From Owenia fusiformis (Eukaryota; Annelida; Polychaeta; Sabellida; Oweniidae), in NCBI GenBank assembly GCA_903813345.2, contig CAIIXF020000002.1, forward strand, positions 13,102,150 through 13,166,149: a stretch of DNA of 64,000 nt. Direction: 5' to 3'. Below are positions 26,171 to 61,000 of this stretch, piece after piece. The translations under genes were made by a program, and so were the position numbers. The notes beneath the pieces are model-generated. The model was not told the origin of the DNA and did not search any database. It saw only the letters and a program-made list of their open reading frames with translations. The stretch's first letter is position 1. Each line of letters begins with the position of its first letter.

Positions 26171-26912
26171 TAATACCCCTTGCTGTTTGTTTCAGAGTTG
26201 ATAAGTAAGATTAAGAATGTCAGTTAAAAACACTGAATTATTAGCAGTAGGAACAAGTCTTTAAAACTTGATTGCCAAACCTTTGTGCCTGAGACTGGCA
26301 GAATGAGGAGGATTAAGAATGTCAGAAAACATTTTTGGCAGAATGAGGAGGGTTACGAGTGTCAGACTAACAACTACAATGTACTGTTAAAAAATATGAA
26401 TCCTTTACCAGGATGCTATTGGTCAGCTCTCTGGCTAGCTAACTAATCTTGAAATTTAATTGGCTAAGACTTTAGAGACCTACACATGTAGAATGATGCT
26501 CTATAGTGCTGCCTCGTCTTAACATGTTAACTCAAATATTTCCCAATGAAATATAATACAAAAGATTAAAGTAGAATATAAAAGACATGATGAAATAAAA
26601 AGTAATGAGCCAGGATCATTACACTTGCCTAGATCTATTATCTTATGGTGAAATGGTCCTAATCATCGCATGGTCCTAATTATCGCTTGATTGTCCTAAA
26701 TAGCTACAATTTCCATCCGCCTCTTTAGAAACCTGCTGCTAATGAAACCCCTGACCTATGTTTCTATTTTTCCATATATTGTTGTTATATGGTTATGGTA
26801 ATACATTTGGTTGCTAATTTTTTAAATTCAAATTACTCAATAGAATTATGAACTAAAATTTACTTTCCTGATGTTTGCCTTGCTATTTATTATACACATA
26901 TTTATTTTTCAG

Positions 26913-29654
26913 ATGATGAATGAATTGACACCTACTGAGAATGCATCACCATCCCTGGATTCTGATGAACTCATGGGAACAGAAACTGAGACAGATGGTA
27001 ATGAAAGTCAGAAAGACATTGACTCTCGATCCAAAATAAAAAATAAACCATCCAAAGCTAGTGCCATATCAGAACAATATAAAAACATGAAAAGTTTACC
27101 TGGTAAACTCCTTGTTGATTTTAATAGTTTCGATGGAGTTTGGTATCATCACCCTGTGTTCAAAAAATATTGGGAACAATATCACATGTGCATGGAATGG
27201 CAGAAAAAACATGCAGAAACATACAACAATATCATTAAAAAGCAATGGTCTGATTGGATGGCACAGACGAGTCAAGTGTCAAAGTCATACACGCAAGTCT
27301 ATAGAAATGCTGTACCTCAAACAAACAACAAAACATTGGGAGAGAATAATAAGAGGACACAACGTAGGAAAAGAAAAGGAAAAAAGAAGAGAAGACGTAA
27401 AGAAGAAATGAGCCCCGTGGCTAGTAGTTCCATGGTAGATAGTAGTGATTATGAATATGACACAGAAGAACAAATTTATGAAATCACAGAAGAATTGAAA
27501 TCATTTTTTGAGACTACAAAGCTTCATAAAGAATCAAGAAGTAAGGTTATAGTTCTTTTATGATTTATACATAGTTAACACACCAATTACATTTACTAAA
27601 TTGAAATGATTTCTGAATAACTCAGATGCGAGTTGGTATAAACCAGTTTCACCACCAGGTGGCTCGTTCGGGTCAGATAACATGGCGGGTATAGTAGAAA
27701 GTTCCCTTTAACTTAAATATTCATCTGTTTTAGTGGTTCAATTTTCATACCACCCTTATGTATCTAATATTTATGCAAATTGAAATATATCCAGTAAAAG
27801 AAAATGTTATACGTCCAATACAAGAAACAGATATTTCACTTTTTGTGACTTTATAACATTGGGTCTATGGGGAATCTACCCGAACTAGAATCACATTTTC
27901 CAAAAAAATTTAATTTTCAAAGTTGAAAAACAATTTTTGAATCCGTATTTCTAGATGTACTTTTACATGTAGCTTTTAAATATGACATCAGTTTGACTGA
28001 ATTTTGAATATTTAACGAAGTAAATCGATATTATTTCTACTCGCATCGAGTCTATTTACTCACTGTAGTGTTTTTCAAAAGTTATTATCCTACAGAACAA
28101 AGTTTGATAAGGGATATTACATGACTCTCTCTAGTTTCTGGGAAATTATTAGGATGTGGTGTGGTGATCATACACAGGACACTGTCACACGAGCAACATG
28201 TGAGCTTGGTGAATGTGCGAGGCAAGTGACCCAAAGACATGGAGAAGGTGTTTTTGATGGGGTCATCTCTCGAGGAAAATTTTGAAACACATTACATATA
28301 TGGTGTATTCTTACTTCTTAGCATTTATTTGAACATGAAAATGATAAATGCATCGTCTCTAACTTGAGCACATCCATCATCTTTGTATTTTCTGCTGGTC
28401 TCACAGTGCAAGTGCTAGGGCACCACTTATCAACTTTTGTTTCCAAAATGTTGCTCATCGTTCTATTTTTATTTTGGTTTAAGTTCACCAGTTATTATTT
28501 TAAGACTCTATGTGGTAATTACTTTTGTGTACTTTTGGGATATAGAGAACCCATCTATCTATTTATACAGGCAGTAACTTAAATATCCGTTGACAGATTT
28601 GATTCAAATTGTATACATGTTGATGTCTTATGGGCATAATATAAGGGCACTGATCAAGAAAAAATCTCAAGATGGCCACTGAATTCTTTGTCACCATGTC
28701 CATGTAAAATGGTATTTGTGATTACAGTACTTTGATTCAGTTCAGAATTTATAGGCTAATGCCTTAAAGGACCACTGTTCCAGAAGTTTGAGTAGGAATA
28801 TTGAGAAGTGGTTCACGATTAATAGGGGTGATAACTGTAATACCAGTGAACAGATTTGGTTTGAATTTTAGAGGATGATGTCATCTTGGCAATGGCATTC
28901 ATTGGTATGAACATTAAAGTTATTAGATGGGGAGCAGTGATCATGTCATGAATGTACATACATGTATTGACAAATGGAGAATGAGTTATCTAGCTGGTGA
29001 CTTGGACCATTTACACAACTTACATAGCATGCATATAGCTTGTAGACTGATGCCATGATTAATACAATTACAAATGTATTTATTGCAGGGAAAGAAAAGG
29101 CTGCAATGAGGAAATCTGAAAAGGAAGAACCAAATGAATATGTTAACATAGAAAAAGGTAAACTCATTTGTTAAACTGCCTTTGGAATTTCATGCTGCTT
29201 TGGTTTTCATTTTGTTCTAAGCCTATTCATATTATTTAGGTGAGGCTGAAAATCCCAATGTTAAACCAATTAAAATGGGGAAAACTTGTTCCCTCATGAA
29301 ATGCATTGTACATGTATTAAATACATTTTACTTTATTATACAATTTTCACTCCTTCCAGTTGAAGACCTTAACATCTAATCAACTGTCTAGTGCATTTTT
29401 AGATATGTTTTAAATGTAAACTTGAGGAAAATCTACTTTCAGCAACAATGAAATCTCAACATGCCACAACTTCAGCACCCACAGAAAGACCTGGAGCAAG
29501 ACGTACCTCTGAAATGCGACAACTTTACGGGAAGAGTGCAGCAATGATTCATGGGATGGAAACAGCCATCCAACTGACATATGATAGAAACTGTGATATA
29601 GTTCAGCCAAAACTTTGGCCAAACATGCCATTAAATATAAGTTTCTCAACTTAA
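26913..29654 (+). CDS. GEMIN8: GEMIN8 orthologue, three coding exons
   Basis: Coding exons 26913-27540, 29089-29157 and 29443-29654 join in phase (302 residues). The start MMNELTPTEN follows a TTTCAG acceptor at 26912, so a 5' UTR exon lies upstream. Diagnostic GEMIN8 blocks are VWYHHPVFKKYWEQYHMCM (residues 76-94), YEITEELKSFFETTKLHKES (189-208) and, in the last exon, APTERPGARRTSEMRQLYGK, ending with a P.LWP.MPL block. A Lys/Arg-rich run at 148-164 could be a nuclear signal. GEMIN8 bridges SMN, GEMIN6/7 and UNRIP in the SMN complex that loads Sm rings on snRNAs in the cytoplasm and concentrates in Cajal bodies. Human GEMIN8 is about 242 residues; the extra length is in the N-terminal tail and basic middle. 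A MITE lies in the first coding intron. Transcript end is marked by AATAAA at 29689. Confidence 0.93.
27622..28052 (-). mobile_element. 430-bp MITE of the GATGCGAGTAG family, GEMIN8 intron
   Basis: Ends in the short inverted repeat GATGCGAGT/ACTCGCATC. It is an inverted relative of copies at 57780-58212 and, shortened, 57213-57480 in IGHMBP2. Shared internal phrases include 'gaaatatcttttcttgt' and 'gatgaatattca'. Confidence 0.75.
28580..28930. repeat. Dispersed 'fusion' repeat, copy in GEMIN8 intron
   Basis: Contains 'cagatttgattcaaatt', 'tatgttgatgtc'- and 'aatatggccactcaattc'-type phrases also found at 30420-30800, about 57440-57560 and 62800-63060. The family is not recognised; units seem internally repetitive (~100 bp). 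Confidence 0.55.
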
Positions 29655-33561: not shown

Positions 33562-34081
33562 TTACAAAGGTATTAAATCGGAATCTTTAACCCACGAATC
33601 AAACTTTTTTGGCCAATATTGCCAACGCACTAAATGTTCCCGTTGCCCTCGTCTAGTTCGTGTTTTCAAGATTTTTTCTACTTTCCAAATATCATCTTCA
33701 TTCGCTTGTACTCTTTGAAGCTCCGATTGGTAAAAAGTACCCTTAATGTCTTCATTTTGAAAATCATTTAAACGATATAATGGGAGGCCCTGCCTAATAA
33801 AACGTTTCGTTACTTTAAAAATTTCCCCTGTCCAATGTTGGTCGTATTCTCTACTAAAAACATGTCTCGACTGGGTAATTCTTACCAGAGCTCCAATGGG
33901 GAATTTTAACGATAGTTGATTTAGGATAATACATCCGCCACCAAATAACCAATTCATCGTCTTTAGATACATTTTTAGGAGCCATTTTTATACCCCTATG
34001 CCAAGTGGCGTTATAACTCTTCACAAAGTTTTGTAAATTGTCTATAAATCTATGGTTCTGTTTGTACGTGATATACCTCAT
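33562..34081 (-). pseudogene. Polinton integrase relic (3' part, chromodomain)
   Basis: Shows the end of an integrase core (YNATWHRGIKMAPKNVS type) followed by the region 'WTGEIFKVTK...FYQSELQRV' and a C-terminal chromodomain (VEKILKTRTRRG ... LVRWQYWPKKFDSWV), the layout of Polinton c-integrases. Such integrases join the linear element to chromosomal DNA. This copy is incomplete and broken. Confidence 0.8.
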
Positions 34082-34085
34082 TATT

Positions 34086-35162
34086 TTAGTCTTTACACCA
34101 CTTTTTTATATGCCTCTGTAAGTCGTGAATGCTATCAAATACTAAACCACAGTCATCACAGGATACCATGCTGTCTTCTCGAAATTCACGTTCCATGTAA
34201 GGGTAGTTCTTAACATCACTACTATTTATAAATGTTGTCGTCGGATAGTCAACTTCTGAAATACCCTGTCTTTCAAGTAAGTGTTTTGAATCATTCATTG
34301 GTTCCTTGAAGTTGCGGGAATCGTGATGACTTTCAAATTCAACTTCACTTTTAGTAAAGGCATTTGGTTTCAATCTGCTGTGCTCCGAAGTTTCTTGCTT
34401 CAGATCAAGAAGCAGGTAACCATAGGGTCGACTAGTTGCGTTGGTATATGCTCTGACCAACTTGTTTCCATTTCCGGGGTACATCTGCCTCGATAAGAAT
34501 GCCACCTGTTGGCGATCTCTCGGGTTATTAAACAGTATCATATAGTGAGAGTTTAAGCTCATCGATCTATTCATTTTTCCTTGATGATACATATTCTGGA
34601 GTAGGCATATCACAGACAGATTTCGATGGTGACTGCCTTTGCTATAGAGATCACATATCCGTTGATCATTTGTTGCCTCATTCATAAGATCATCGAGAAG
34701 TATCAAAGTAGGAACTGAAGTGTCAAGGTATCTTGAATCATCAATATCCTCTGGTATTCCCTTCACAAATTCCAAATGTGGGTATTTTCTTAGCTCTTCG
34801 TAGGCAGGCTGCCATTGACCATAACACCAGATGATTCTTCTAGGAATTGGGGATATATACCGTTCAACATTTTTGATCAAGTGCTTCATAAGCCAGGTCT
34901 TCCCCGACGATGTTGGTCCGGCTGAAAATACAACAAAAAAAATTTTTTTTTTAATAAATTGACATGCTCTCTTTCTATATTTAGAAACCTATCAGACTTT
35001 TAATTTCAACATGTCCATGCCTATACCTGCTATCATAGTAAACGGATGTTTCAGCATAACATCAGACTGATGCATTTTTTCTCCATGAAACTTATTCATA
35101 TGCCTTGATAGGTTATCACCTCTCGTAAAATTCACACTACACTCAGAACAATTGAAAGACAT
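34086..35162 (-). pseudogene. Polinton packaging-ATPase relic with C2H2 finger motifs
   Basis: A region of the A32/FtsK-like packaging ATPase: a Walker A type PTSSGKTW near 34895-34920 and a Walker B type LILLDDLMNE near 34690-34720, both of the Polinton/adintovirus kind. A C2H2-like finger (CDDCGLVFDSIHDLQRHIKK) sits at the end by 34090-34160, and another (CSECSVNFTRGDNLSRHMNK) lies in a separate piece at about 35095-35160. In the family the ATPase packages element DNA. Treated here as a fossil. Confidence 0.75.
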
Positions 35163-42047: not shown

Positions 42048-45000
42048 CTAATGTCGTGCTCCTCTGTTATCATAAACATGGTCAACATGTACGTCTTTCT
42101 CAAATCTCTGCCTGCCTTTAAATGTGGCGAATATGGCGACACCTATTGCAGCTACCAGAAGAATGATCAAAATGACAACAACCACAAGGAATTCTAAACT
42201 CTGTAGGCACGATACTGTACTCGAGCTAGACGGTGTTCCATTATTGGCCACAGGGGCATACCCCTCTATAAATAGACAATAAATTGTGTTCATTTTCAGC
42301 AAATCAAACTAAAATCCTCTAAACATTTAGATATGCAGTAAAAGCCTTCTATATTTGGTTATATAATATCTTACCGGTACTCATTTTTAAAGTATGATTT
42401 AAGCTATACTGTATAACAACATGGAATAAAATCTGACTTGACAATCATGATTTGTTGTTTTGGTGTAGTTGCAGTATAAAGATTTTATCGCGAAGTTACT
42501 TATGTTTGGCACACTCACCGAATGGGTCGATGTTGTTTGTGGAGCTGGCTTCATTGATGACTCTGTAGCCAACTCGGACTTTTTTCTCCAATGAGCTGTT
42601 GGCGATGGCTGTAGTGTTAGTTGCTCTTCTTTTCCTTTTCGAACATGTCGTCTGAAAATATTTGCATACAATATTTCGTTGTTGGTTGCAATCGTAACGA
42701 GCTGTATTTTTGCAAACTGTTTAACGACTAGTGGAAATGAAACTCCAGCAGCTGGAAAGGGATAGGGATACAAGGAAAGAGTGATAGGAATACAAGGAAA
42801 AGAGAAGCGAGCAATGAATGGATAGAAATGCACGATCAAACATATGTATCTATTGATACATGGAGCTGCCGGTTGGTCTGGAAATGACATGCCGTCATTA
42901 TAAACTTTATAGTTGTAATGAGCACTTCAAGATGCTACTTGGAGAACTATTGGAATGCAACTGTACAGTCATTAACATGGATAGGATAGTTTCTAAATAG
43001 CAGAAAAATCAATGAAATCTCGTGCTACCATCTTTTATTCAGCTTTTAACTCTGGCTAGAGCTCCATTCACTTACATGCTAAAATCTTGGAAAAGTGGCT
43101 TAATTTCATGATTTATCAAAGTGTGTTTGTTGAATCTGTATAAAACTTGAATGATATACCACATGATGACCCTGTTTATGAACATGTTGTGATTAAACAT
43201 GCTAATGTTGATTGACATACAAATAATCCACGGTTTTAAAGAATTTTAGCATTGCATCTATGGACATTTGGCCCAACTTTTTTTAAATTGTCATAGAAAA
43301 TTATTCAAATTACATAACTGTGTAAATCAAAGCTATTTTAGGAGAAAACATTCCACTGAATTCAAATATACCATTTAAAAGAAGGTAATGTTACTAATGT
43401 AGCCTAAGTCATTAGAGGTCTAATCTGCAAGTCTCTTAAAATCTCACGAAAAACGAGATTTAGCGAGATTTCAAAAGCTATATGGAAACTATACTGGAGC
43501 GCCTGAGTTGCTACTGCCGGGTGAAATTGGCCGCTGGCAAGCGTTCTCAATGTTGTATTAACGTATTGGATTTGGGTTGGGTATTTTACAATATGTAGTT
43601 CTCAGCATACAGTTGATGATACGATGTATAGGATTTCTAGGTAAAAACTTATATTCCACAGAAAACGGCAGTACCAAGGGAAATAAAATACTCACCACAT
43701 CACATTTTGTAGCGAGGTCTCCCGCCGTGCAAAACTCGTATGTGCACTCGAAGTAGAGCGTGTCGATATTGGGAAAATGGAACGATCTCATGGTCGTATC
43801 TGTTTCCACAATGTAATCTGTAGCAGATGTGGAACCAACTAATTTGGCTGTAGTATCGAAGAGTCCACCACTTGCGATATCCAACCATCCGCATCTATAC
43901 AGTATCAAAGAACGCAAATAATGAACAGAACAAGTATGGATAACACAATAATCGTGGGATAAAAACATTTACTGTATGCAGTATTTCATTAAAGAAAAAA
44001 TTTCTAGAAATTTTTTTGATGACTAGTTACGCGGTATACATGATGTTACTTACCCGTCTGTATCTGTGATTGTGATGCCTTGGTTAGTGGAGAGTGGAGA
44101 TATGCTTGGGTAGGCAATACAACGTCCAACAGTAATTCCCTTAAAGGCTATAGCAGATAGATGGGATTGGATATATTACTCTTCTAATAGCATTGTTACT
44201 GTAGCGAGTATGTGGAACATTTTAGTTGATGCTTTTTTATAAAATTAGTATTTGGAGAGCAAAAACAGCAAATGGAGACGGTTATCTTTGGGAGAATAGT
44301 TTTATATCCAGTGCTAAATGTACAGGGTGTTCAAAAAAACGAACCCCAAAGAAATCGCGATATCTTGGAAAATACTAATCCAATTATGTTCATATTTTCA
44401 GGAAAGAAAGAAGAGACTGTGTATGTATAGCCCCTGTTGTTATTTAGTTGAAAAACATGATGTCTTGGACACTTGCTCAAAAGACAGTTGTACTAGCAAA
44501 ATACGAAAAGCGCGAATGGAAATTAACTATATCTTGGAAAATACTAATTCAATTATGTTTATTTTTTCAGGAAAAGAAAGAAGAGACTGTGTATGTATAT
44601 CTCCTGTTATCAGTAAGTTGTAAAACATGATGCCTTGGACACCTGCTCAAATGACAGTTGTACTAGGAAAATATGAAAAAGCAGTCAGAGGTGACTGCTA
44701 CAGCAATAAAACCAAATAACTTTCTAAGCATGGTGTTTTGGCACTTCAGATTTGGCACAAATTATCCTCATTCAATGTGTGGTGAATTTGTGGAGTTTCA
44801 TCAAAATCACTCCAGGGACTTTATAGTCATGTAAATGGTCAAAATGCCTTCTTAAGTATCCCTGAACCAGGGCATTTGACTTCGATTTGAAAGCATTTCA
44901 ACCATGACAGTGAAGTCCCTGAAGTGATTTTGATTTCACTCTAGAGATTTATCATACAATGAATGAAGATGGTTTGTGCCAAATTTGAAGAGCCAAAACA

Positions 45001-48000
45001 CTATGGATAGGAAGTTATTTATTTTTTTGCGGTTCCAGTCACCCCTGACTGCGTTTTTCGCATTTTGCTAGTACAACTGTCTTTTGAGCAGGTGTCCAAG
45101 GCATCATATTTTACAACTAACCATTGACAGGAGCTATACATACACAGTCTCTTCTTTATTTTCTGAAAATATGAACATAATTGAACCAGTATTTTTCAAG
45201 ATATAGCAATTTCTTTGGGTTGCGTTTTTTGAACACCCTGTACTTGTAGTCACTTGTATATTCAAAGAGAATGTATTCAATAAACTACCTCTACTGTTGT
45301 CCGTCATAGTGAGCCTCAGTTTGATATCCGGATAGGTTTGTAGATTCAGAACGGCGCCGTTGGCAAGCACAGTTTCGCCGCCTCCAGTTGCCACGCCCAC
45401 TACTTCAAGAGTCACGGTAGCTTGAGTCAATGTACTCGTCCCAGGTAACAGACTCCTTGAATAATTCAAGTGGTAGAAAGAGATAGAATTGCAAGATTTA
45501 ATGTTCTCGAAATCACGACAATTAAATGTGTCTCTTCCTATTCCTTAACATCTGAAAAGGTTTATGACATGGGAAAATGTGTTTTCTTAATTTATGATAT
45601 CAAAACAGTATAACTGTAGCCCAAATAAATACCTCCCCAGATTTTTTTTATTGTGGTCCATTTTCACTACTACAGTATCTTCTTGCTGCGTAGAATGAAT
45701 TGTCTGGGCAACTTGCCAAAATGACGACAGGCGAACTTGATTATCAGTTCAGTCGTTTTAAAAGATTTAACACACGCTATGAAAAAAGCTACTGCACGTC
45801 TAAAAATTGCAACTTACGTTGACGCAGACGTCAAAGTGAACGAAACTGTGTTAGTAATGGTAGCAAAGTCACACGCATTGTCCGTCACATCAAATTGGTA
45901 ATCTTGTGACGTTTGAATGAACGCTCCTTCCTGGGTAATGACCCGAACTGTGTACACCTCTCCCTGCAAGCATATTTGAATTTGAACCGAGTAGTCAAAA
46001 TATCATGTTAACTGTAATGTCCGAAACTGTTATAAATCGTTAATACTTGTACTGTATGTAATGGTAGTCCCCCGGACCGCGTTCCCTATATTTAGATATC
46101 TTCTGGTTGTGAATCCTAATGATTATGGTCTCAATAACATGAATAAGGAATGTCCTTCCCAACTCTTTATATTTAATAAGACCATGGACTATATGTATCA
46201 CCAATGGACTTATTTTCCTTCCAGTCCGGGACTCCCATTAGTAGACTCCCATTCCATTTATACCCAGGAAAACCTCGGAGACTAAAAACGTTTACACCGG
46301 CGCAGCGTCTGTTCCCACAATCGATCAACCATTTATTCATAAACTTTATCATGAAAAACTGAATCTTGCAGATTTGTTGAATTTTCTAGCAGACACAGAC
46401 TTCTCCTCTCCAACCATTTACCGATTGCCAGGCGTGATTATCCAAATTGGTTTATACATATTGGTATATATTGGTTGGTATGGGAACATATTGCAAATTG
46501 AGATTTGACAGATTGGTATCCGAGGGGTCAGGCTAGGACTCCGCCAAAGTTTGTATACAGTGAATCCCGAGGGTGGAGGTTCGGATTTTTTCTGGTTCAT
46601 GAATGTTCATACTTACGACGTTCGTCATTCCACATTTTGCGTAATCAGCCGAAGCAACTCCGCTTGTCACGTCAAAGGTATACTCCCAGAAAGCACCTAA
46701 AGTATATCATATTAGAAAATTAGGATGACATCTAATATGCCCCATACAAGTAAAATAAAAAAGTTATTTGGCTGATCCTGGTCCATCCGCAAACTACTAT
46801 CTAGTATTAAGTTTCTCACATTCTATATAAGCGTACATGTCCTAAGCTGATGTCTCCTTTTGTTGGGATGGGGTCTTATGCTTTTGGGATCTCATGCTTT
46901 ATTTTAATAGACCCAACTGCACTAAAATGGCGAGTGAATAACAAGAACTCACCACCCCCCGCATCTTTCACAAAATCACAAGTTCCTTTCATTCCATCGG
47001 CGTAAACAGAGTTCAAGGGGGTGCCAGCTGCTTCATCAAGTCTCACATATATTTGCTTCTCCCCGAGATTCGTAATGGAGCATGAGAATTGGACTGAAAT
47101 CGAATAATGAAAATAAAAGTAGAGATATGCCTCTGAGAGTAGTAAAGTATTGAATATTGCGGTACATGCAGACTACCCATTCAGATTGCGTCGGGAAACA
47201 ATACATGCCATCTCAAATAGTTTTCTTCGTCTTCAATGCCCTCTCAAATATTTATTCAAAGACTAGTCAGGAAAAATAAACCAAACACTAATAATTTACA
47301 ACATTTTTCATTTTAGAACATACTTTTGCATACCTTTATATAATTAAAACTACTTTGAGAATTTTATTCAATAGATCGGAAGATGTTATTACATTCACTA
47401 TATACCATCCTTCATTCAAATCAGGTCTTCATTTATTCCTCAATTTTTATGGAAAGAAGTGAAATACCCTTGGACCAAGGATGCTATTTACTTCTATAAC
47501 ATTCCAAGATAACACGGAAAATCGCAATTTTATTATATATTTGGAATTTCAAATTTTGAGAATTATACTGAAATAACGTGACCGAGCAATGACTTGATAA
47601 ATGTTTTGGGAAAATTGAAAAGATTTTCCTCATTCCATAATCTATTTTCTGTGACATAATTCTAGAAACATAGGAGACTATACACGAAATATACAAAAAA
47701 CTTACTAAACGGAGTTGCTTGACCAGCGGCATTCTACAAAAGTAAATTGAGAATTTTGTGTTTAAAACAAACTTACTTGCTGGAGTCTGGCCAACCACCA
47801 TCTACAAGAAAACAACACGAACAGATAGACGAACAAACAAATAAACGAACGAACGAACAAACGAACGAACGTAGAACATGATTGACGAGACAAGATAACA
47901 AACATTTAACTACAGAAAATAAATAATCAAAAATATATGTCCAGTTATACCTTTTATTGAAAAAAATAAACAAGTTTTAGTACAGATAACGGATATTTTA

Positions 48001-48145
48001 TCATTTTAATGTATAAATGGTGTCAAAGTGTTTTTGAGTCTTATGCTGCCATTTGTGTTTTACCCCATTGTTTAATAAATGACGCATCTGTCTGTAATCT
48101 CACCTTCACCATTCCTATTACCAATAACAGGGCAATCAACTTCAT
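42048..48145 (-). CDS. ZP-domain type I membrane protein with mutually exclusive exon 2
   Basis: Exons (minus): 48145-48104; then either 47801-47777 or 47733-47706; 47093-46953; 46696-46617; 45963-45818; 45455-45289; 44147-44054; 43894-43696; 42651-42519; 42265-42048. All are GT-AG and in phase, giving 414 or 415 residues. Exon 1 encodes a signal peptide (MKLIALLLVIGMVK). The ZP-N half has four or more Cys (QFSCSITN, GTCDF, KCGM, NACDF). The ZP-C half has GRCIAYPS, GCGWLD and the closing FECTYEFC...KCDVTTC cluster. A furin-type KRKRR site (303-307) and a single membrane segment (about 368-391, VVVVILIILLVAAIGVAIF) with a ~23-residue cytoplasmic tail follow, as in polymerising ZP proteins. Likely role: extracellular filament or coat protein released by furin cleavage (family knowledge). 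Egg coat, gut or sensory matrix cannot be told apart. Confidence 0.88.
44323..45240. mobile_element. Tc1/mariner-type foldback MITE in a ZP gene intron
   Basis: Ends CAGGGTGTTCAAAAAAACGA and its inverse, flanked by TA on both sides (44321-44322, 45241-45242). Arms of more than 100 bp; a ~175-bp terminal segment is duplicated on the left (44334 and 44512). Inner inverted segments also pair. 918 bp, no transposase. Confidence 0.85.
47706..47733 (-). CDS. ZP gene alternative microexon 2b (28 nt)
   Basis: TTGTAG acceptor, GTAAGT donor; encodes NAAGQATPF plus one base. Same entry and exit phase as 2a, and similar in sequence (..GQ.TP.), so the pair looks like a tandem exon duplication. Confidence 0.75.
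47777..47801 (-). CDS. ZP gene alternative microexon 2a (25 nt)
   Basis: TTGTAG acceptor, GTAAGT donor; encodes MVVGQTPA plus one base. Enters in phase 0 and leaves in phase 1. Only 43 nt separate its donor from the acceptor of microexon 2b. Confidence 0.75.
47823..47868. repeat. (CGAA)n microsatellite
   Basis: An imperfect CGAA/CAAA tetranucleotide run, located only ~20 bases upstream (on the gene strand) of microexon 2a. Confidence 0.85.
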
Positions 48146-58000: not shown

Positions 58001-61000
58001 AAATATCTTTTCTTGTGTTAGGCAGATAATATTTTCTCTTACTGGACATATTTTAATTTGTATAACTATCTCATACATAAGGGTAATATGAAAAGTGAAC
58101 CACTAAAACTGATGAATATTCAAGTTTAAAGGAATTTTGTAATACCCTGCCATGTTATTTCCCCCGAATCAGCCACCTGGTGGCGAAACTACCTACTCGC
58201 ATCTGAGTAATTGTATTTGTGGGAATTATTTTATATGTATTGAAAATTTGAATGGAAAGGAGCCCTAAATTTTGTTGAAAGGTAAAGGAAATCCACTTTG
58301 CATTTAATTCATGATTTATGGAATGTTTGGTACACAGCATGAAATAAATTATTGGCTAAGCTGTATTGTTCAATTTTGTGACACTTTGATCATTTCATAA
58401 ATACATGCACCAAGTAAGCAATTGGTACTATTTGATTTATGGGGTGATATTTTGGAAAGGGTGATTTTGATCCCTTTGAGGATAATTGGAGAAATTTGAG
58501 TTTAAAACTAAGCCAAATAAAACCTAAGACCACAACTATGTTTCACCTCTGACATATGATTATCTTTTGATCCCAGGGGATTTGCCACTAATTTGAGGAA
58601 TTGATTGAATTTCATAGAAATAGAAAGTACTTTAAGCCATGAACTAATAACTTTATGTTGTGACTGTTAGCTTAAAGAAATATCACTTCCCAAATAAGTA
58701 GAACTAGGGATTTAAGAGGACATTGGTATCAGTTATTTTGCTAATATTGATGTCATTGAATACAAGGTCAAACACGATGGATTTTTATTCTGAATTACTT
58801 TAGCCTGCACATTTAATTAATTTATTGATTGTAAAAATAAATATTGATTCAACTGATTTCTGTCTTTTTATTGAATCTGAAAATTATTGGCCTCTGTTTA
58901 GAAATACCTCAAATTGAAGCAGAAAATTAAGATTCGACAGGGTGAATTTACATTCATGGATGTCCCATAACCTTAAATGTCAAAGTTAGACTTCCATAGA
59001 CATAGTTACCACTTTATACAGTATAGTATGTATTTCTGCTGGGCGATTAGTGTATTTATCATTTTTTCAGATTTTGGCATGTGCCCCTTCAAACATCGCA
59101 GTTGATAATTTACTAGAGAGACTCACCATGCGAAAGGTCAAGGTCGTCAGGTTAGGTCATCCTGCAAGATTATTACCGTCGATTCAACAACATTCATTAG
59201 ATGCTATACTGTCATCAAGTCATATGACCCAACTTGTACATGATGTCAGGAAGGATATTGACATGACTCTGGTTTGTTAACTTTATGTTTTGTCAAGTGT
59301 CTATTTATTCTATAGTTATAAGGTCCTACATATACATTGTTATTTCTTGCTAAAGAATGAGCAAATTGCCTAATTTTCTGCCTCATATCTTTATTAATTA
59401 TCATTTATGAGCAAAACCACATAGATCCCTCATTGAGAGTGCCCAGAGTGAGTTTTTATTATGCACTGATACACAGATATAAAAGCACACACTACAACCT
59501 ATTAAATGAGTTTTTATTATGCACTGATACACAGACATACAAGCACACACTACAACCTATTAAATGAGTTTTTATTATGCACTGATACACAGACATACAA
59601 GCACACACTACAACCTATTAAATGAGTTTTTTTCTTTTCAGAGTAAAATGAAAAAAAGAGCCAACAAGGGGGAAAAGCAACATCTACGTGAGGATTTGAA
59701 ACATTACAGGAAGGAACTGAGGGAACGTGAAAATGCTGCTACCAAAGATATCCTGTCACGAGCTGAGGTTGTTATGGCAACACTGACATCTGCTACAGAT
59801 GATGGACCCCTTAGACACCTACCAGATGGTCACTTTGATCTGGTTGTTATTGATGAATGCTCCCAGGTAGAAAAACCTTTCAATATTATATATACATGTA
59901 CTTATACTGTATAATATTATATTATATATATTTATATGAAATACATTTAAATGTTGTCATGATTATAATTTGTGTCAGAGACAATCATTTTTTTATAAGA
60001 AAGAAATAATGTTGCAGTCAGCAATCACAAAATCTTTTCTGAAAAGTGTAATTTCTATACCCATTGTAGTGTACAGAGGCAGCATGCTGGTTGGCATTGT
60101 TACATGGCAAGAGATGTGTCCTTGCTGGGGACCACCAGCAACTTCCACCTACCATTATTAGTTCAAAGTGAGTTCGGAATGTGTAGCCTACATTTTTATG
60201 CTAATTTAGAAGAGCTTATAAACACTTAGGTACATGTCATTTTGTTCAAACAAGGGTTGGCTAGATGTTTTTATTTCATTCCAAAGAATTTGTAGCAAGA
60301 ACGAAAACAGTGTCAGTATTACATTGTGACAGATTCATGAATTGGAAGTTGCTGATTTCTAACTTAATGTTCCTATCCTTCCCCCTGCTCATTCCACTTC
60401 ACCGAACCCCTCTCTCCTTCCTCTCCCCCTCTGATCTATATAGTAATGCCCTCATGACTTGATGTGAAACATATCCACAGATGAGTATTTGTTGTCTATA
60501 GTTTGTACAATAAGTTTACTTTGGAATGACCTTTATCACCAGTGATCAACTGTAAGACATGATGTCCTTGTTTCAGCATGACTGAACTTACAGTAGAAGA
60601 ATATGGTAAGAAGTTTTTTGTTTTGCTGATTTTGTCACCTTTTGAATTATCTAAACAATTACTCTATGTATAACCATATTTTGAATACGCTCTACATATG
60701 GATCAAATATAGTTTAATTTGAAGGATAAAGGTGAGAAAATTGAGAAAACAAAATCATTATCAACCAGAAGTCCAGCCATGCTGAAATGAAGACATCATA
60801 TCTTCGTTTCCATTTGATCCCCAGTGTATGAAGTATCACCCCCCTGAACTACTTTTAAACCTAATCTCCTTATAGATGAGTGATGAATGAATGATTTTAT
60901 TTTGTTAAGTGGGATTCGATACTCTCTGGAGTAGTGGTGTCAATTAACTGCTTGAGCATTAACCGGTTAACCGGGTGTTTTTACCGGTTAAAGTCGGTTA

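Follow-up and report, generated by a model that had tools for sequence, protein, structure and literature searches.

Two very small exons, A and B, stand side by side in a ZP-type gene, which would encode a surface-coat protein, of the 64,000-nt stretch of Owenia fusiformis DNA analysed here (the window). They sit 43 nt apart, after the signal-peptide exon and ahead of the first ZP-N exon, and each fits the same two neighbours by phase: exon 1 ends in phase 0, and the exon that begins at 47093 is entered in phase 1. This arrangement raises an obvious question: What use can a gene make of two adjacent exons that fit the same slot? The reading that we consider probable, though well short of certain, is that an old microexon of this gene family was duplicated in tandem, and that both copies are intact and serve as mutually exclusive alternatives with nearly equivalent products.

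A ZP-type gene with two microexons

The gene lies on the minus strand between 48145 and 42048 (Table 1). It has ten coding exons of 42, 25 or 28, 141, 80, 146, 167, 94, 199, 133 and 218 nt, introns of 159 to 1141 nt (in the model with microexon A), and a protein of 414 aa with A or 415 aa with B; in this model the acceptors at 45455 and 44147 were picked so that the frame stays open. A ZP-module protein is expected to have a signal peptide, four ZP-N cysteines, ZP-C cysteines, a basic cleavage site and a transmembrane helix, and all of these features can be read in the product. The signal peptide is followed by four cysteines in the N-terminal half and by six further on, before KRKRR, and the C-terminal side has one cysteine near a hydrophobic transmembrane helix and then a short cytoplasmic tail. 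The Pfam profile PF00100 (ZP-C) gives a weak match to residues 188-297 (E = 0.0017; 18.9 bits, with a curated cut-off of 24.6), and no solved structure matched the protein up to E = 1. The gene, which an earlier note on this DNA had called a ZP gene, reads as ZP-type on the basis of its architecture together with this weak Pfam match.

Table 1. Features of the ZP-type gene, in window positions
Feature	Position	Strand	Basis and remarks
Exon 1: start codon and the greater part of the signal peptide (MKLIALLLVIGMVK)	48104-48145	-	Sequence; phase-0 end, donor GTGAGA
Short tandem repeat (TTCG-like in minus-strand reading), immediately upstream of A's acceptor	47817-47871		Tandem Repeats Finder; direct repeats D1, D6
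Microexon A, 25 nt, MVVGQTPA + 1 nt	47777-47801	-	Phase 0 to 1; TTGTAG acceptor, GTAAGT donor
43-nt spacer, donor of A to exon B	47734-47776	-	Sequence
Microexon B, 28 nt, NAAGQATPF + 1 nt	47706-47733	-	Phase 0 to 1; TTGTAG acceptor, GTAAGT donor
First ZP-N exon	46953-47093	-	Gene model and similar paralogue exons; phase 1 in, phase 1 out
ZP-N exon	46617-46696	-	Gene model
ZP-N exon	45818-45963	-	Gene model
Linker / ZP-C exon	45289-45455	-	Acceptor ending AAG, picked to keep the frame
ZP-C exon	44054-44147	-	Acceptor picked to keep the frame; Pfam stretch
ZP-C exon	43696-43894	-	Gene model and Pfam
Exon with furin-like site KRKRR	42519-42651	-	Gene model
Last coding exon: transmembrane helix, short cytoplasmic tail, stop codon	42048-42265	-	Gene model and paralogue matches

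Microexon A reads ATG GTG GTT GGC CAG ACT CCA GCA A, and microexon B reads AAT GCC GCT GGT CAA GCA ACT CCG TTT A. The earlier note had given the coordinates, lengths, splice signals and phases of both, the 43 nt that separate the donor of A from exon B, and the frame shift expected of using both or neither. The sequence bears out each of these points exactly: the frame is open across the ten-exon model with A only or B only, while joining A to B, or skipping both, leads to early in-frame stops. The layout of the gene suggests that a messenger RNA should take exactly one microexon.

To judge how often such a pair could arise by accident, we scanned for units in which a pyrimidine-rich YAG acceptor, an open exon (16-45 nt, length 3n+1) and a GTAAGT donor follow one another. 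The two strands of the 64 kb together contain three such strong units, and A and B account for two of them (a broader donor list gives 5 units on the plus and 8 on the minus strand of the window). First-order Markov (Markov-1) sequence yields 0.175 strong units per 64-kb strand, and 2.56 Mb of it contained no pair of them closer than 120 nt. Because such units are rare and the Markov-1 sequence gives no close pair, the A/B pair is not a product of chance. A loose scan of the 1010-nt intron for a third microexon found A and B and nothing else.

Other parts of the window hold features of a different kind. Neighbouring reading frames at 33562-34988 (minus strand), with a chromodomain (PF00385), a weak sub-cut-off match to an A32-type ATPase and a weak C2H2 finger, are presumably part of a Polinton/Maverick-like mobile element. 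A reading frame at 26844-27563 (plus strand) matches GEMIN8, an snRNP-assembly factor (PF15348, E = 3.1e-14), and one at 59564-59914 (plus strand) matches an AAA_11 helicase (PF13086, E = 4.5e-14), which we take to be IGHMBP2-like.

Probable duplication of a family microexon

The two peptides have G-Q-(A)-T-P in common, and their codons for G, Q and P differ solely at silent third positions (three changes). When the DNA of A and B was compared by shuffling, the likeness gave p = 0.03 for the exon, p = 0.04 for the 15-nt acceptor and p = 0.0015 for the 15-nt donor region; the flanks beyond, taken 28 nt outward, were no more alike than their shuffles (p = 0.35 upstream and 0.65 downstream). A repeat finder reports a 24-nt direct repeat (75% identity, 71-nt spacing) that covers the 3' ends and donors of both microexons. 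The likeness of the donors and acceptors is partly functional, and for this reason the case is good rather than conclusive: A and B are likely tandem duplicates. The earlier note had proposed exon duplication from the similar peptides, and the common core and the 24-nt repeat uphold that proposal, if modestly, given the p value for the exon DNA alone.

The relatives of the gene indicate what may have been duplicated. The full window protein has 21 matches in its own genome, 8 of them in the window gene itself, and relatives of the first ZP-N exon occur at six loci (L029, L032, L033, L036, L040 and L041). L029 is nearly identical to L032 and L040 to L041, with one member of each pair on C2 and the other on the small contig C124, so that these six loci are probably four genes. 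A microexon with the phases of A and B is present at five of the six, and at three (L036, L040 and L041) a counterpart of exon 1 can also be read. At L040 and L041 a 28-nt microexon that encodes GAFGQATAT (phase 0 to 1) stands between the phase-0 exon MKIIFVLAAIQLLQIK and the ZP-N exon; at L036 a microexon that encodes IVFSQTPQP, likewise of 28 nt, comes after the phase-0 exon MRRLVAEILCIFIR. The unit of L029 and L032 is 22 nt long (VTTGAAE or VTTGVAS) and shares the phases of A and B, and no convincing signal-peptide exon for it was found upstream of L029 (L042 and L029 searched together) or in the flank of L032. At L033 the signal peptide and cleavage site lie in a single exon that ends in phase 1, and the phase-1 border is retained. 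The regions L043, L044 and L045 are without a readable 5' end of a close paralogue.

Because the paralogues have a single microexon with equal phases in the same place, a phase-0 to phase-1 microexon that ends the signal peptide is, as read from the gene sequences, an old architecture of this ZP family, a point that is new relative to the earlier note. The paralogue scan, which took in the six loci but not the 5' ends of the ZP-C matches (11 rows), found no second microexon of the family pattern, and among the loci scanned the window gene alone has two. The other units that it returned do not fit the pattern: NLQTF (L040 and L041), MFVLVL and TPQP, the latter a sub-unit of IVFSQTPQP (L036), HKDFPI, LHSMLLK and KCDWGVR (L042 with L029), a 37-nt unit (L032) and TGETTRY (L033). 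Judged from the scanned paralogues of this one genome, with their single microexon, the A/B pair could be recent or private. We propose that an ancestral microexon carrying the end of the signal peptide, the signal-peptidase site and the initial residues of the mature protein would have been duplicated in tandem in the window gene.

Does the gene need both copies? One might be used constitutively while the other persists as a duplicate that is silent or seldom used despite its intact appearance. The paralogues get by with one microexon, and the two products look nearly equivalent, which would make the loss of one cheap. However, the flanks of A and B no longer align, yet both copies keep their acceptor, GTAAGT donor, phase, frame and cleavage core; this argues against an unused copy, which would be expected to decay. 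We give constitutive use of a single copy a minor but appreciable chance.

The paralogue loci also offer an observation on the assembly. Near-identical copies of two ZP paralogues of C2 (C2:18093860-18117947) occur on the opposite strand at C124:397728-416557, comprising L029, L032, L040 and L041, and are perhaps a second haplotype that the assembly retains. L029 and L032 differ in their 22-nt unit, while the ZP-N exon next to it is almost identical. The 38 forkhead matches of this genome lie on C1, C3, C4, C5, C6, C8, C9, C10 and C11, with none on C2, C7 or C12. If the long contigs are chromosomes 1-12 sorted as text, these are exactly the chromosomes (1, 2, 3, 5, 6, 7, 8, 11 and 12) to which the accessible part of PMC9539403 assigns the forkhead genes of Owenia fusiformis, and the window would belong to chromosome 10. 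A tunicate origin was considered and dropped: besides the forkhead placement, a search for GH6 gave no match, a weak negative since its controls gave none either. A search for COX1 found nothing.

Spacing and proposed mutual exclusion

The preferred reading, mutually exclusive use of two intact copies, calls for something that keeps A and B apart. The 43-nt gap would bar the spliceosome from joining A to B, with U1 on the donor of A and U2 at the branch region of B clashing, and transcripts with both microexons or neither would be frameshifted and removed by nonsense-mediated decay.

We compared the gap with introns estimated from 64 of 92 myosin-head matches, the remainder being 12 tandem copies and 16 matches with no neighbour. 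The 35 myosin exon pairs, one of which skips an exon (leaving 34 separate introns), give estimates from about 126 nt up; for a genome this is a small sample, and it consists mostly of estimates. The smallest intron of the window ZP gene is 159 nt. Next to sampled myosin introns of about 126 nt and more, an intron of 43 nt would be exceptional in this genome. The suggestion in the earlier note that 43 nt is probably too short for an intron stands in so far as the gap is far below the sampled introns, but the limit is not absolute: the accessible part of one study reports that human introns of 43 nt are spliced, with G-rich enhancers, and that some animals splice very short introns (PMC4463651). 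The gap between A and B has no runs of G. It contains one match to yTNAy, with its A 33 nt past the donor and 9 nt short of the acceptor. As this match is the only one, the branch site of microexon B may be a poor one or may lie further upstream, within exon A.

These sizes also bear on a different use of the pair. Since joint use and skipping each yield early stops, the gene might be turned down by poison splicing, in which A and B are joined or skipped to produce frameshifted transcripts. The intron between A and B, however, would be about one third of the smallest other intron estimated here, and no stretch of about 43 nt is hidden in the 64 myosin matches, where the greatest excess of DNA over the profile is 12 nt. 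We consider poison splicing improbable.

Pairing of the RNA between a docking site and selectors was considered as an exclusion device and rejected: the inverted repeats of the 1.2-kb region around the microexons (8 pairs, e.g. 20 nt at 75% and 16 nt at 88%) are short and scattered, with no docking site and a selector for each exon. The intron downstream of the microexons contains a dispersed repeat (window positions ~47394-47491), found in at least 39 other places at 85-91% identity with 40 of 450 candidates scored.

Predicted products and known systems

What would the choice between A and B change in the protein? Exon 1 with A gives MKLIALLLVIGMVK-MVVG/QTPA, and with B it gives MKLIALLLVIGMVK-NAAG/QATPF (the slash marks the predicted cut). 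Cleavage sites were judged by the -3,-1 rule rather than by a trained signal-peptide predictor; a cut between G18 and Q19 is permitted with either microexon, further positions pass too, and the rule permits a cut before Q or EQ in the paralogues L041, L036 and L033. The cleavage-core pattern [GSA]Q(A)T[PA], which was chosen post hoc, has a chance of ~4e-5 per random open 8-codon stretch of matching composition. Each microexon likely encodes the predicted end of the signal peptide, the likely cut, and four or five residues at the start of the mature protein.

The earlier note had placed the swapped residues right after the signal peptide, which fits the last four or five of them, while the first four or so belong to its predicted end. 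It had also suggested that the swap could alter either cleavage or the mature N-terminus. Both versions permit the same cut, and the predicted mature ends differ only in four or five residues. Both versions are likely secreted and cut at one common residue, a narrower effect than had been proposed. Cut before the same glutamine, the two predicted mature proteins would start with Gln and differ only just before IQFSC, with ends QTPA-IQFSC or QATPF-IQFSC, and exchanging A for B would be a small change directly before the first ZP-N strand. The ATG that immediately follows the acceptor of A, in frame with the remainder, might instead make A a first exon that starts a leaderless intracellular ZP protein, but a full acceptor precedes A, and its peptide fits the family cleavage-site pattern, sensible only behind a signal-peptide exon, which leaves this start highly improbable.

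A more ambitious version of mutually exclusive use can also be put forward. Regulated switching between A and B might adjust how the signal peptide of a ZP polymer subunit is processed and what its mature N-terminus is (e.g. in an egg versus an epithelial or larval coat), with unusually small mutually exclusive exons kept apart by the 43-nt spacing alone, and with the TTCG repeat at the first acceptor perhaps tuning the ratio if it varies between individuals. We regard this as doubtful.

In alpha-tropomyosin, exons 2 and 3 exclude each other through a donor too near the next branch point, as was shown experimentally; the same spacing principle is proposed here for A and B, whereas the alpha-tropomyosin exons are of ordinary size. 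Schistosome micro-exon genes, in the accessible accounts of them, resemble the window gene in having very small exons and in coding for secreted proteins that bear a signal peptide. Their microexons are mostly multiples of three in length, with many per gene, whereas the window has one asymmetric pair in a ZP-type gene.

Frame-shifting lengths occur in 60% of human clusters of mutually exclusive exons according to the accessible part of a 2017 survey, which counts a distance below 50 nt from donor to branch point as steric interference (9% of human clusters) and finds all of its structurally analysed mutually exclusive exons embedded in the fold, unlike microexons (PMC5740500). Mutually exclusive exons that arose by tandem duplication, as described in the accessible parts of PMC5740500 and PMC9741552, are like A and B in being adjacent, similar and frame-shifting if used jointly; A and B differ from them in their 25 and 28 nt, in encoding a signal-peptide end, and in that their exclusion is a candidate one, predicted from the DNA. 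The accessible literature on mutually exclusive microexons, signal-peptide exons, the annelid ZP domain and Owenia microexons contained no earlier report of the pair. Mutually exclusive exons are known chiefly for exchanging part of a folded domain, while the choice between A and B would exchange the signal-peptidase site together with the residues that open the mature protein. If both microexons are used, the locus would be a compact natural test of spacing alone as a means of exclusion and of signal-peptide ends tuned by splicing, and the paralogues, with their single microexon, supply a ready comparison.

Tandem alternative exons are also on record in an annelid: the Mhc gene of Capitella has several clusters of them, in tandem as in the window gene, with longer exons that lie within the motor domain (accessible part of PMC3912159). 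In the present genome, locus L060 (C9:37986009-37994334, minus strand) contains 12 tandem matches to positions ~25-81 of the myosin head profile (QTYSGLFCVVINPY and so on), with a broken extra copy near 37991222; downstream of this array, the parts of the head that come next are each matched once. We take the repeated stretch to correspond to Drosophila Mhc exon 3 (cluster-1). For cluster-1 the accessible part of PMC3912159 names two exons in Neoptera and none in Capitella. Locus L060 looks like part of a myosin heavy chain gene in which alternative exons form a 12-fold cluster.
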